A stretch of DNA of 64,000 nt from Flavobacteriaceae bacterium (GTDB lineage: Bacteria; Bacteroidota; Bacteroidia; Flavobacteriales; Flavobacteriaceae). The notes below the pieces were generated by a model that was given only the letters and a program-made list of their open reading frames with translations, ran no database searches and had not been told where the DNA came from. Positions 41,205-46,586 of this stretch are shown here, one piece after another; the stretch's first letter is position 1, and every line of letters starts with the position of its first letter. A program made the translations under genes and the position numbers. The stretch lies in the NCBI GenBank assembly GCA_013001285.1, contig JABDMU010000035.1, positions 1 to 64,000 on the forward strand, written 5' to 3'.

Positions 41205-41220
41205 ATAATCATTCTTTTTT
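41196..41220. terminator. Weak terminator between convergent YceI and acylase genes
   Basis: AAAGAAT (41196-41202) can pair with ATTCTTT (41211-41217), followed by TTT. It overlaps the stop codon of the YceI gene and sits at the 3' end of the acylase gene, so it could serve both. The stem is AT-rich and short. Confidence 0.45.
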
Positions 41221-43302
41221 GATGAAACCATTTTCGGTGAGAATTTCAATATGATCTATATTTGGAAACAGCTCTTCGGGATAAAACCAGGCTTCACGTA
41301 ATTCCTTTTTTGAAAACAATTCTAATTGATCACCAAAGTGAGGTGAATCTTTTTGCGTAGCATTTCCATAACTTAATAACACATTGGCTTTAATTCTATC
41401 TCCAAATTCAATAACACTCACCCAGGAATCTCCTCCGCCAACATACATATGATCAGCATCGGCTCTACCTGGCCATGCAACACGAAATACACCCATAGAT
41501 CCATCAATGCCATTTGCAGGCAAATTTTTGCCGTTATAATTAATTCGATAATAATCACCCCAAGGTGTATCCAAACTACCAAATTTGGATTCCAACTCAA
41601 AAGCAGCCGACTCTAATAATTTTACTGCTTGTTTAGGGTCAGACAGTCCATCTGGAGTTGTATTCGGGCTATTCATATCCCAGCCTTTAGCATAATTCGA
41701 GTTATTCCAGACATTAAATTTCCTTGCCCAATTATAAAAGAGAAGCATACCTTTACTATCTGCGTCAGCCTCACGATCCCATTGTTCAAGCACTTTTTTC
41801 GCTGCTTTTGCCTTTTCAGAATTTGAGTTGTCAACGGCAATGAAAAGATCATCAAGAATCCTATCTGCGAATTCGAGGTGCGTTGATAGTTTATAATCTA
41901 CCAACTCTTCAAAACTTATAGATTCATCTTCAATAAGCATTCTCGCAGCACGCTGCGGCCTGAAAGCCATGAATTTTGGAGCCATATACGCTGGGAAATC
42001 ATTAGGATCTAAGATCATTGGGATGGTACTGGTCCAAGGTGGATCGTTGGCGTTTTGAAGCCAACCGTTTTCAGGATTTTTTACTTTTGGAAGATCGCTG
42101 TAAGGATGAACTTCCGTCCATACATCCTGTGATTTTCCGCCAGGAATAACACGATCCCAATAGGCCCAGTCACCAGAAGCGCGTTTTGGAACCAAACCGT
42201 TGAAAAGGTAAAAAATATCACCTTGTTTATCGGCGTACATGACATTCCAAAATGGAATTTGCGCCATTTTCAACGCGGTTTCGAATTCATCAAAGCTGGT
42301 ACTATTGATCATGCGCCACCATTGCAAGAACATATTGGGTCTATCCAGACCAACCATGCGCAATGCTAAAATTTTATTTTCAGATGTGTTAACCACTGGA
42401 CCATGAATGGTTTTCATTAAAGGAATTTCGTGATCCGTATAACTACCGTCATCTTGCTTAATTTTAATTGTTTTGGAAGAGATTTCAAAAGGTTTGACCT
42501 CTCCATCAATAACATAACCATCGTTTTGAAGTTCTAATTCATAGGTATCGGCATTATCAATGGTGTTATCAGTATGACTCCACCCAAGATGTTCATTAAA
42601 GCCAATTGCAATTCCAGGAAACCCCACCAAAGTAGTACCATACATCGGTTTTCCTTTTAAAGTCAACTGCGATTCAAAAAATAAAAATTCTTGCCACCAA
42701 GGTAAATGCGGATTTTGAACAAGCATCGCATTTCCTGAGGCTGATCGTTTAGGTGCTATGGCATAAGTATTTGAACCCATATCGGGCCAAAGTTGCACGC
42801 GTCCCAAATCGTTTCCTGCAATAAACCGCGTAAAGATCACATACATACTATGCATGTTCATATCTTTAGTTGTTAAAGGCAGAACTACTTTGTTTTTTTC
42901 ATCAATAGCATCTGGATGCGCTTCGGCATAGGCATTCATTCCATCTACAAATGACTTATAAATGGTTTTTATCTCTGGATCCTGTTTTGACTCCCATTGC
43001 TTGGCCAAATCTTCAAATCCTAAAGTATGGATTAATTTATCGTTTTGCAGTTTATCTTTTCCCCAATATTCTGAGCCTTTACCTCTGGAGCTGCCGTAAA
43101 GTTCTGTTATAAGGTTGGCATGATTCTTCATTTGAGCCCATCCTTGAGCAAAGAACAATTCTTCTATATTATTTGCAGAAATATGTGGTACGCCCCAGGA
43201 ATCCCAAATGATTTCTGTGGGATGTACATCCTGTGAGTTACAGGAGTAACTTATAAAAAGAAGGAGGATAATAAGACATTTTATAATTGCTTTCATTTTC
43301 AT
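41209..43302 (-). CDS. Penicillin acylase-family N-terminal nucleophile hydrolase (lipoprotein)
   Basis: 697 residues from MKMKAIIKC (in-frame ATGs exist 15 bp upstream and 6 bp downstream). Lipobox ISYSC (Cys21). The family makes an alpha chain, a removed spacer and a beta chain that begins at the catalytic Ser. That Ser is Ser177 in DMGSNTYAIAPKRSASGNAML. ILWD/IIWDSWGVPHISANN near residue 35 is the usual opening. HLPWW, GTTLVGFPGIAIGFNEHLGWSHT and the final FGDRIKANVLLSYGNA belong to the beta chain. Relatives cleave amide side chains (beta-lactams, acyl-homoserine lactones, aculeacin); which applies here is unknown. Confidence 0.93.
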   Translation of the reverse strand: MKMKAIIKCLIILLLFISYSCNSQDVHPTEIIWDSWGVPHISANNIEELFFAQGWAQMKNHANLITELYGSSRGKGSEYWGKDKLQNDKLIHTLGFEDLAKQWESKQDPEIKTIYKSFVDGMNAYAEAHPDAIDEKNKVVLPLTTKDMNMHSMYVIFTRFIAGNDLGRVQLWPDMGSNTYAIAPKRSASGNAMLVQNPHLPWWQEFLFFESQLTLKGKPMYGTTLVGFPGIAIGFNEHLGWSHTDNTIDNADTYELELQNDGYVIDGEVKPFEISSKTIKIKQDDGSYTDHEIPLMKTIHGPVVNTSENKILALRMVGLDRPNMFLQWWRMINSTSFDEFETALKMAQIPFWNVMYADKQGDIFYLFNGLVPKRASGDWAYWDRVIPGGKSQDVWTEVHPYSDLPKVKNPENGWLQNANDPPWTSTIPMILDPNDFPAYMAPKFMAFRPQRAARMLIEDESISFEELVDYKLSTHLEFADRILDDLFIAVDNSNSEKAKAAKKVLEQWDREADADSKGMLLFYNWARKFNVWNNSNYAKGWDMNSPNTTPDGLSDPKQAVKLLESAAFELESKFGSLDTPWGDYYRINYNGKNLPANGIDGSMGVFRVAWPGRADADHMYVGGGDSWVSVIEFGDRIKANVLLSYGNATQKDSPHFGDQLELFSKKELREAWFYPEELFPNIDHIEILTENGFIKKE

Positions 43303-43330
43303 GTTTTTGGATGCCAACTAAGTTAAAAAA

Positions 43331-43708
43331 TTATTGTGACTGTTTTGCTAATTTAGTTTCGACAATAATGACCAAAGCAATGCCAAAGACATAGGCCAAG
43401 AGATCACCCATATGATAGGTGCTTCCCAATACCAATTTGGCTATTGTATTATTTTCCCAACCCAGACGTTCAAGCAGATTGAAATATTGTGAATACTCTA
43501 CACAGAAGGCCAGACACAAAACAATAATCGCGAGAGTTATAGGATGAATGACTATAAAACTTCTAATAAAGCAATAGATCAGAATAACGACAAGAAAATC
43601 ACCGAAGGTATGTCTAATGAAGCCATCCTTCAAGAATATCGCAATACATGCTTCGATCACAAAAAGTGTTAGGAACAGTAAGAAATAAACACGATTGAAT
43701 TTTAGCAT
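43331..43708 (-). CDS. DUF2809-family membrane protein
   Basis: 125 residues, four membrane helices (about 7-24, 35-53, 56-74 and 98-118). The family pattern is FIRHTFGDFLVVILIYCFIR (about 30-49), then CVEYSQYFNLLERLGWEN and GSTYHMGDLLAYVFG. DUF2809 proteins are small polytopic inner-membrane proteins of unknown function. It follows creD on the minus strand after a 78-bp gap that contains a hairpin, so it may or may not share the transcript. It precedes the acylase gene by 28 bp. Confidence 0.88.
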   Translation of the reverse strand: MLKFNRVYFLLFLTLFVIEACIAIFLKDGFIRHTFGDFLVVILIYCFIRSFIVIHPITLAIIVLCLAFCVEYSQYFNLLERLGWENNTIAKLVLGSTYHMGDLLAYVFGIALVIIVETKLAKQSQ

Positions 43709-43786: not shown

Positions 43787-45160
43787 TTATCCATTGTTCC
43801 AATCAATTTTCCTTGAAACATACATGACCAGCGATAAAATAACGAACAATCCAATACTGCCCACAAGAAGAGCATAATTCTCTAATTGAATGATCACATA
43901 AATGAAGGCGTATAACGTGGTGAGTGAAGTAGCAATAAGCAACGGGAATTTCACATTTTTTAAGATTGATTTAGAGTAGAGACTAATAAGAATAATAACT
44001 GAAATTCCAGATATGAGATATGCTTTTAGGAAATTACTATGTTCAGATATAGATACTAATAACGTATAGAACATGATCAAGGCCAATCCAATCATTAAAT
44101 ATTGAAACGGATGAATAGGGATCTTGCTCAGAGTTTGGATCAGGAAAAAGATTAAAAATGTGAGACTGATAACAAGAAATCCATATTTAGCAGAGCGTTC
44201 ACTTTGTTGATATTCATCAACTGGGATCATAAAATTAACACCAAAGGCGAAGGCTCTCAAGTCTGGTAAAAAGTTAAAATGCTGTTGTGAAAAAGCTCTA
44301 TTAATATCAAGGATTTTCCATTTCGCGTCGAAACCACTGGCATTTAATTTGTCATCGTTATAAGGTAGAAATTCACCAAAAAAATTAGCAGTTTTCCAAT
44401 CAGATTTTATTTGGGTCCTGGTTTCTTTTCCAATAGGAATAAAACTGATTTGTTTACTCCCGTTTATATTCAAATTTATATTAAAGGTTTTATTTGAAGT
44501 TTTTGGTAGGTCTTCAATGCTGACGGATTTACTAATAAGATCGCGCATTATTACTTGGTTGATAAGTTGATTGTTATTACCCGTGTATTGACTGGAGAAT
44601 GGGTATTCTGATTTTCCAATATGAATTGAAACCAAATCGTTGACGCCTTTCAGATTCGATGTTTGCATGATGATCTTCGACTTTTCCCAGAGGATTTCTT
44701 CATCTTTAATATCCATCTCTGAAAAATCTGGTTTACTGAAATTTCCAGACATATGCATTTTACTCTGATAGACTGCAGTTGTATAGATGCCTCTGCTTTT
44801 TTCTTCAGGATTGATAGTCGTTGTAATGTCTAAACTGTCAGGAAAGAAATAGGCATAGTTGGTTTCTTCAATGGTCTCTGTGGTTACTTTTTTTGTGGTG
44901 GCATCAGTGACTGTTTTTTCAAGATAGGATATATAAGGGATCCTTAATACAGGACCATAGATAAGCACTTCCTTTCCCCACTTTTCCGAAATTTCATTAA
45001 CGACTTCTTGCTGCCTGTTCGAGCGTTCACGAATCAATTCTTCAATGTAGATAAGCGGAATCAATAGGATGAGAACTAACGCACCAACCATGATCATGCG
45101 AGCTGTTATTGAGGTTTTGATCCAATGTCCGAATTTGTTTTTGTTTTCTGTCTGTTCCAT
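43787..45160 (-). CDS. creD: Inner-membrane protein CreD
   Basis: 457 residues. One N-terminal helix (about 18-42) after ITARMIMVGALVLILLIP, a large periplasmic domain (about 45-310) with WGKEVLIYGPVLRIPY and YFFPDSLDITTTINPEEKSRGIYT, and a cluster of about five C-terminal helices (about 325-450). In Enterobacteria CreD is induced by CreBC and affects envelope and beta-lactam/colicin tolerance. Here no CreBC is present; a small winged-helix regulator gene sits 48 bp upstream and a palindromic operator lies between the two genes. Last gene of the membrane-protein/regulator cluster. Confidence 0.92.
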   Translation of the reverse strand: MEQTENKNKFGHWIKTSITARMIMVGALVLILLIPLIYIEELIRERSNRQQEVVNEISEKWGKEVLIYGPVLRIPYISYLEKTVTDATTKKVTTETIEETNYAYFFPDSLDITTTINPEEKSRGIYTTAVYQSKMHMSGNFSKPDFSEMDIKDEEILWEKSKIIMQTSNLKGVNDLVSIHIGKSEYPFSSQYTGNNNQLINQVIMRDLISKSVSIEDLPKTSNKTFNINLNINGSKQISFIPIGKETRTQIKSDWKTANFFGEFLPYNDDKLNASGFDAKWKILDINRAFSQQHFNFLPDLRAFAFGVNFMIPVDEYQQSERSAKYGFLVISLTFLIFFLIQTLSKIPIHPFQYLMIGLALIMFYTLLVSISEHSNFLKAYLISGISVIILISLYSKSILKNVKFPLLIATSLTTLYAFIYVIIQLENYALLVGSIGLFVILSLVMYVSRKIDWNNG

Positions 45161-45175
45161 GTTAAATAATTAAAG

Positions 45176-45194
45176 TACTTTGAATTTCAAAGTA
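45176..45194. promoter_or_regulatory. Palindromic operator TACTTTG-N5-CAAAGTA before creD
   Basis: A perfect 7-bp inverted repeat with a 5-bp spacer, 15 bp upstream of the creD start codon. The same half-sites and spacing recur at 46494-46512 before the first gene of the cluster. Its minus-strand left arm (TACTTTG) is one base short of a -7 box, so a bound repressor would block the promoter. Confidence 0.75.
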
Positions 45195-45208
45195 AAATGA
45201 TAAAAAAA

Positions 45209-45502
45209 TTAGTGTTTATTTATAAGATGCTCCAAGGCATCAATATGTTTTTTAAACGCTTCCTGGCCAAGTTTGGTGGCGCTATATTGAGTATTGGGCT
45301 TACGGGCAATGAACTGTTTCTCAACCTTTATGTAGTCCACTTTTTCTAAAGCTTTAATATGACTGGCCAAATTCCCATCAGTTACTTCCAAAAGGTCTTT
45401 TAATGTCCTAAAGTCGGCATATTCATTAACCATCAGAACTGACATTATTCCAAGGCGAACGCGGTGATCAAAGGCTTTATTTAGTTTAGAAAGGATGCTC
45501 AT
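45209..45502 (-). CDS. Small winged-helix transcriptional regulator (HTH_34-like)
   Basis: 97 residues, essentially one winged helix: SKLNKAFDHRVRLGIMSVL (helix 1), VNEYADFRTLKDLLEVTDGN (helices 2-3), NLASHIKALEKVDYIKVEKQ (recognition helix about 45-55), a beta wing FIARKPNTQYSATKLG, and a C-terminal helix that probably dimerises. This is the ArsR/MarR-like type found in front of creD in Bacteroidota, best matching the family I know as HTH_34. Its probable sites are the two palindromes at 45176-45194 and 46494-46512, which would give autoregulation. The inducing signal is unknown. Confidence 0.85.
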   Translation of the reverse strand: MSILSKLNKAFDHRVRLGIMSVLMVNEYADFRTLKDLLEVTDGNLASHIKALEKVDYIKVEKQFIARKPNTQYSATKLGQEAFKKHIDALEHLINKH

Positions 45503-45524
45503 TTATTAACGATAATCATGTGTT

Positions 45525-45812
45525 TTAATTTCCTGCGAATGCTGTGCCAAAAATGCCTACAGCCAATTCCGCCCAAATTAAAAGTAGCAAAATTAGTATG
45601 GCAATAATTAAAGCGATGCGCTGTTCAGGTTTTTTAATTTTTCTGATGGCGAGTTCAATTAATGCACCAGTTCCTAATAGAAGCCCAGCAGCAACGATAA
45701 AATCGAATAATTTCCAATTCACTTGATCTGTGAATTGCATGGCCGTAAAAGGAATTAATAAAATAATGACAATTGATGCTATTATTATTGATATTCTTTT
45801 GTTTGCTGTCAT
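45525..45812 (-). CDS. Small membrane protein of the creD cluster
   Basis: 95 residues from the ATG at 45812 (a TTG 51 bp upstream would overlap the previous gene and adds a poorly supported tail). Three helices: about 8-24, 36-53 and 66-90, with a basic loop RKIKKPEQR (about 58-66). No motif I recognise. It lies between a 208-residue membrane gene and the regulator, all minus strand with short gaps, so it is probably part of the same regulated operon. Confidence 0.7.
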   Translation of the reverse strand: MTANKRISIIIASIVIILLIPFTAMQFTDQVNWKLFDFIVAAGLLLGTGALIELAIRKIKKPEQRIALIIAILILLLLIWAELAVGIFGTAFAGN

Positions 45813-45859
45813 AATAAAGAAGTTAAGTGAATAAAAATTTTTAAGTTCTAAAGAATCAT

Positions 45860-46486
45860 TCAACTCTTATCAAATTTAAAATACATTAATAGGCCGTAAA
45901 CGATATGGCAAACCCCGAATCCGAAAGCCCAAAAATACAATCCATATCCTAAATAATAAACTGATAATAGTCCTATAATGATCATGGTTATTCCAAGATA
46001 TCGCGTATAACCTAGAGTATATTTACTTGCATTTACACAAGCCAACCCATAAAATACAAGGGTAAGCGGTGCAACAAATGCATAAATTTCTTTTTCTATT
46101 AGGAATAAAATGAAGAACCCGCCAGTGACGAGTGGGATCAAGAAGTTTATCAAGAGTCGTTTTGATGCGGCATCCCACAATTTTTCATTATGTTTTCTCG
46201 CTTTTCTCCAGCTAAAATAAATTCCAGCGAGCATTGATAAAATAATAACTATTATAGCAATGGCTACGATCTGAAGCATTTCTAATTCATAAATAACAAT
46301 CGATTTATAAGCGTCTTTCGAAGGGGTTTCTGTAGCGTAAATGATATCGTGAACCCGCCAGGCTCCAATTAGTGAAAAGATACCTGCTAAAATTCCCGAT
46401 AGACCACTTAAAGACATGAATCGGGTAGATTTATGCATGATATCCTTGATCTCGGAAAGGTCTTTCAAATAATCTTTTGATTCCAT
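45860..46486 (-). CDS. Multi-helix membrane protein, first gene of the creD cluster
   Basis: 208 residues. An N-terminal amphipathic segment (MESKDYLKDLSEIKDIMHKS) precedes about six helices (26-44, 70-92, 112-131, 134-150, 157-173 and 178-200). The loop FSWRKARKHNEKLWDAASKR is strongly basic, so it is cytosolic. I recognise no domain family. The palindromic operator lies 7 bp before its start codon. Order of the operon: this gene, the 95-residue membrane gene, the regulator, then creD after a second operator. Confidence 0.75.
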   Translation of the reverse strand: MESKDYLKDLSEIKDIMHKSTRFMSLSGLSGILAGIFSLIGAWRVHDIIYATETPSKDAYKSIVIYELEMLQIVAIAIIVIILSMLAGIYFSWRKARKHNEKLWDAASKRLLINFLIPLVTGGFFILFLIEKEIYAFVAPLTLVFYGLACVNASKYTLGYTRYLGITMIIIGLLSVYYLGYGLYFWAFGFGVCHIVYGLLMYFKFDKS

Positions 46487-46493
46487 ATAAAAG

Positions 46494-46512
46494 TACTTTG
46501 AAAAACAAAGTA
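46494..46512. promoter_or_regulatory. Palindromic operator TACTTTG-N5-CAAAGTA at the head of the creD cluster
   Basis: Half-sites and spacing are identical to those of the site before creD (45176-45194); only the 5-bp spacer differs (AAAAA here, AATTT there). It lies 7 bp upstream of the first start codon, so its half-site TACTTTG on the minus strand could itself act as the -7 box with a 16-nt UTR. Confidence 0.75.
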
Positions 46513-46586
46513 AATTAAAATAATTGTCATTTGCAACTATTCTATTACTTTAAACTAGTCTTTTGAAATAAAAGAATTGAAAAAAA

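Follow-up and report, generated by a model that had tools for sequence, protein, structure and literature searches.

A one-sided, three-half-site operator and the HTH_34 winged-helix regulator predicted to repress membrane-protein genes through it in Bacteroidota

A small winged-helix regulator of the HTH_34 family would act, in the Bacteroidota, as an autoregulating repressor, both local and global, that covers the -7 element of each promoter across a changing set of membrane-protein genes. We hold this with considerable confidence from comparisons of sequences centred on a 64,000-nucleotide stretch of the genome of a Flavobacteriaceae bacterium (assembly GCA_013001285.1, contig JABDMU010000035.1, positions 1 to 64,000), hereafter the window. 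Binding of the regulator to the element described below appears very likely on these grounds; repression, like the stoichiometry, the signal and the physiological role, is inferred. Autorepressors with palindromic operators are known; what is new is the one-sided element made of three half-sites, together with its phylum-wide set of targets. No description of the operator or of the regulon was found in the open-access literature searched, a scope outside which most subscription papers fall.

All the features of the locus are on the minus strand. It opens with g1, coding for a membrane protein of 208 residues (45860-46486) that is a constant neighbour of the regulator, followed by g2, which codes for a membrane protein of about 95 residues (45525-45812, with an ATG at 45812; the longest open reading frame starts from a TTG at 45863). 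The regulator comes next (45209-45502, 97 residues, PF13601, Pfam 4e-30), then creD, the variable target gene (43787-45160, PF06123, 5.6e-146), and behind it a gene for a DUF2809 membrane protein (43331-43708, PF10990), a probable member of the regulon. A penicillin-acylase-like gene (41209-43317) starts 13 bases behind the latter; as a member of the unit it was rejected, its homologue being present in only two of 80 loci.

The preliminary description of this DNA had reported two identical palindromes, TACTTTG-N5-CAAAGTA, flanking the regulator gene. Both are exact (45176-45194 with spacer AATTT, and 46494-46512 with spacer AAAAA, on the forward strand), and the HTH_34 gene does sit between them. 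The repeats are thus real, but their plainness is not: each extends by four conserved, gene-proximal bases (CTTT on the minus strand) that had been missed. The footprint of the operator becomes TTTACTTTG-N5-CAAAGTACTTT, an inverted repeat with a third half-site abutting it (AAAGT/ACTTT) on the side of the gene. Operator 1, TACTTTG-TTTTT-CAAAGTA-CTTT (46490-46512), displays the three half-sites 3 bases before the start codon of g1, or 7 bases if the palindrome alone is considered; operator 2, TACTTTG-AAATT-CAAAGTA-CTTT (45172-45194), is located 11 bases before creD (15 for the palindrome alone). Both are identified by their conservation and as exact extended elements in a whole-genome scan. Among 331 distinct sites, the third half-site is found on exactly one side in 317, on neither side in 14 and on both sides in none.

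Since matches with two or three mismatches remain at chance level, only exact or nearly exact copies are informative. In the window six matches with up to three mismatches were seen for 6.3 expected, the two operators being the only exact ones, while the 2.88-Mb genome contains three exact copies (none for the reversed pattern used as a control) and no excess of matches with two mismatches, 23 against 37 in that control. Because the plain 19-base pattern showed no excess at one or two mismatches, weaker sites were left out of the counts. A one-mismatch copy in G000:C29 and exact copies in G015, G033 and G035:C11, all devoid of the third half-site, were discarded as products of chance; that of G035:C11 lies inside an apparent coding sequence (L179).

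Conservation of the palindrome upstream of orthologous operons, on which the preliminary description had staked its reading, could be followed in 145 distinct orthologues of the regulator, taken from 80 named loci and 151 Flavobacteriaceae genomes. With up to two mismatches, 144 of the 145 loci keep site 1, exactly in 119 of them, and 134 keep site 2, exactly in 84; the prediction holds, in favour of that reading. In some of the 11 loci with no site 2 at the expected place (G097, G035) it precedes the next gene, and in L145, where g1 is missing, the regulator is itself immediately preceded by a weaker element. Divergent paralogues with 32-38% identity showed no TACTTTG-type site. The extended element, scanned as WACTTTG-N5-CAAAGTACTTT with the reversed pattern as a control, gave 123 matches in the 151 Flavobacteriaceae genomes and none for the control: 119 at the regulator locus, all in the orientation of the regulator, and four elsewhere. 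It is present in 72 of the 76 genomes that possess the regulator and in none of the 75 that do not (Fisher 9e-39, a value that ignores kinship and is a rough guide); the three Flavobacteriaceae genomes that have creD and no regulator likewise have no extended element. These whole-genome zeros are stronger evidence than the Fisher values. Across 297 Bacteroidota genomes 90 matches were collected in 55 genomes, again with none for the control, and all 55 have a homologue of the regulator. The element still accompanies regulators down to about 41% identity, some homologues below about 45% being without a clear one (L233, L242, L245-L247). At L173 (G121:C1:1394277-1394387) the regulator is reduced to its first 37 residues and its vicinity contains no element, which is what a joint loss of the two would produce.

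Linkage and co-occurrence fall short of proving binding, and a different factor might bind the sites, with the HTH_34 gene a mere passenger of the operon. We regard this as very improbable, because copies away from the operon are met only in regulator-bearing genomes and because the identity of the half-site shifts together with the recognition helix in a paralogous group of HTH_34 proteins. In this group T.GTTTA-N5-TAAACTAGTTT stands upstream in nine loci out of nine (L166-L172, L174, L175), some 600 bases before the regulator (917 in L175). The consensus was derived from three of the nine loci and then found in the remaining six, and the operator, AGTTTA-N5-TAAACT-AGTTT, came up in 0 of 100 Markov controls at each locus. 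The geometry is that of the main group, the half-site AGTTTA replacing ACTTTG: a recognition helix TDGNL..H (TDGN..(S/V)H) and a wing RKPxT go with the latter, and a helix T[SQK]GN..Q and a wing NNYPxT with the AGTTTA type. Having changed its code and kept its geometry, this sister group provides a natural experiment in DNA recognition by a small winged helix. The rule linking helix to half-site is incomplete, as L247 has a recognition helix of the first type and no clear element. Some HTH_34 genes of the paralogous group precede that of an ABC transporter ATPase.

The paralogous group also bears on the third half-site. At the locus of the regulator this half-site is always gene-proximal, in what are presumably the first transcribed bases, and it could serve promoter clearance or the mRNA leader rather than the regulator. 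This we consider rather unlikely. The ACTTT that forms the third half-site of the main group is replaced by AGTTT in the paralogous one, in step with the other two half-sites (exactly so in six of nine loci), and there the element precedes the -7 sequence TATATTTG, filling the gap between -33 and -7, hence outside the leader; furthermore, the third half-site of the copy at G000:C20 points away from the MPAB gene. As it tracks the change of code while standing elsewhere with respect to the promoter, contact with the regulator itself accounts for it best.

How the element is placed with respect to transcription signals is what suggests repression. In Bacteroidota the -7 consensus TAnnTTTG pairs with TTTG at -33, as quoted in PMC2483708. 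The outer arm of the operator with its preceding base reads TTACTTTG, one base away from this consensus, so that the earlier remark on the resemblance of the minus-strand outer half-site to a -7 element was correct. At operator 1 this putative -7 (46506-46513, minus strand) overlaps the outer arm, with a candidate -33 TTG 20 bases away (46534-46536, minus strand). That the overlap at site 1 is real is indicated by three observations. All 144 loci of 144 have T at the first position of the -7, though the palindrome does not require a T there. The commonest change of the outer arm, T to A in 20 of 144, gives TAACTTTG, a perfect -7, while the corresponding base of the opposite arm differs in only four. 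Finally, 40% of the site-1 loci have TTG 20 bases upstream of the -7, a frequency that drops to 0-10% at the offsets on either side. Operator 1 thereby covers the promoter from which the regulator and its operon would be transcribed, over the -7 and 20 bases after the -33, as an autoregulated repressor's site does. Operator 2 also overlaps a -7-like TTACTTTG (45188-45195, minus strand), where the constraint is weaker than at operator 1. Counts of offsets across loci revealed no TTG at -33 of site 2; a conserved T-tract is present instead (45202-45208, minus strand, with three positions that are T in 99% of the 134 loci), and this promoter may work differently, with the T-tract in place of the -33 TTG. 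A run of seven or eight T followed by AT[CT]AT[T] precedes, at constant spacing, both operator 2 and the trans operators of YiiX-like genes (L288-L290, L292, L293); in the latter it resembles the tail of a terminator hairpin as well.

This arrangement of site 2, with its fixed T-tract and no recognizable -33, could fit a regulator that binds and activates, or that does both, for example repressing at site 1 and activating or remodelling at site 2, and a similar footprint would be expected from an activator or a dual regulator. Activators normally bind upstream, however, while the element lies over the -7 and the presumed start point at both sites, and that of the paralogous group, between -33 and -7, occupies the position of a repressor; activation, alone or alongside repression, is in our opinion an unlikely explanation. 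It is far less credible still that the repeats are RNA hairpins, attenuators or terminators, rather than DNA operators. Either palindrome could fold into a hairpin of 7 bp and a T-tract does lie upstream of site 2, but the sequences of the arms are invariant, a start point inside the element would drop the outer arm from the site-1 RNA, and the third half-site has no role in a hairpin.

If repression is retained as the preferred reading, its targets extend well beyond creD. The preliminary description spoke of a creD operon: creD is indeed beside the regulator here, and the label proves too narrow, creD being one of several interchangeable targets. Of the 145 long loci, 143 contain g1 and 77 contain creD, and in loci without creD its position is occupied by DUF4153, Coq4-like, MPAB/Lcp-type or g2-like genes; g1, not creD, is the constant partner of the regulator. 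The DUF2809 gene is found in 54 of the 80 named loci, and in L296 a DUF2809 gene is under its own operator. Elements away from the regulator number 24, of which 15 are beside families that neighbour it in other genomes: seven precede g2-like genes; three precede a pair of genes for membrane proteins of 110-420 residues, or a member of it, also adjacent to the regulator elsewhere (a likeness judged by eye); one each comes before DUF4153, CreD, Coq4-like and DUF2809 genes, the last with MPAB behind; and one is beside MPAB in the source genome. The remaining nine precede DoxX-like genes (three), C92/YiiX-like genes (five, in one genus) and a VIT-domain gene. This third exact copy of the source genome (G000:C20:6983-7005, the same as L004:4984-5006), overlooked in the preliminary description, is located between the MPAB/Lcp-type gene and a divergent gene for a small membrane protein; with respect to these two genes it may overlap a -7 on one side and a -33 on the other.

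The regulator itself belongs clearly to its family, matching PF13601 with 104.2 bits for a cut-off of 27, over positions 1-80 of 80. Sequence profiles of PadR, MarR and ArsR gave no match, HTH_34 alone being reported at E 0.001. Its AlphaFold model is a winged helix (pLDDT 93.9) and the closest solved structure is PH1061 of Pyrococcus horikoshii (PDB 1ub9; 35% identity, TM-score 0.89), with which it shares sequence family and predicted fold. To our knowledge PH1061 is annotated as a homologue only, with no operator or target known, whereas an operator and a set of targets can now be defined for the regulator studied here. With the autorepressors of the MarR, ArsR and PadR families it has in common a predicted fold (TM-scores 0.6-0.8), a small size, palindromic sites over promoters and a predicted autoregulation; it differs in that it is not a member of these families by sequence and that its operator carries a third half-site, obligatory and on one side only. 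The spacing of the half-sites, close to half a helical turn, points to protein bound on both DNA faces, as in the two-dimer operators of the DtxR and IdeR type. Those sites are symmetric; the present operator is strictly one-sided.

In gammaproteobacteria creD is also a target gene, that of CreBC, a two-component control that uses TTCAC direct repeats, in contrast with the one-component winged helix found here. The absence of CreBC control, already proposed, is borne out: the genome has no match at the CreC cut-off (best 134 bits for a cut-off of 356, which one of 14 control genomes passed), and creD has no cre-type repeat, the TTCAC direct repeat being absent before it with five matches elsewhere in the window, at chance number. 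Loss of CreD damages the integrity of the envelope in Stenotrophomonas maltophilia (PMC4689548), and by analogy a role of the present circuit in the envelope is plausible.

We may then picture the circuit as follows. The inverted repeat ACTTTG-N5-CAAAGT would be occupied by two monomers, and the abutting, gene-proximal ACTTT by at least a third. Bound at operator 1, they would mask the -7 and the transcription start of the operon formed by g1, g2 and the regulator, which would limit its own synthesis in this way; at operator 2 they would control creD and DUF2809, and at the copy in G000:C20 the MPAB/Lcp-type gene, the divergent small membrane gene, or both. Across the Bacteroidota the same regulator would command a set of small membrane proteins that varies, and a signal probably derived from the envelope, perhaps relayed by g1, would release the repressor. 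As 143 of 145 loci keep g1 together with the regulator, its gene neighbourhood makes it the best candidate for this relay. A bolder version, which we advance tentatively and rate as somewhat doubtful, has at least three HTH_34 monomers on the strictly one-sided operator, g1 as the sensor that controls the regulator, and targets forming an undescribed envelope or membrane stress response in which creD, DUF4153, Coq4-like, DUF2809, DoxX-like and MPAB/Lcp genes are interchangeable.

A code in DNA, a candidate regulator and a list of targets are thus provided for families of Bacteroidota membrane proteins that had no assigned role, and the element can be recovered in any genome of the phylum by a pattern search with almost no false positives. 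CreD, DUF4153, an MPAB/Lcp-type oxygenase and a Coq4-like protein, the last in bacteria that mostly use menaquinone, come under one predicted switch, and that such different proteins do so points to a shared function. As for g1, a profile search returned no Pfam match; its model is all-helical (pLDDT 88.8), and a fold search with it retrieved no significant solved relative. It represents a phylum-wide membrane family for which Pfam has no model, with a strongly conserved N-terminal stretch, SSRFISLSGLSG in the consensus.
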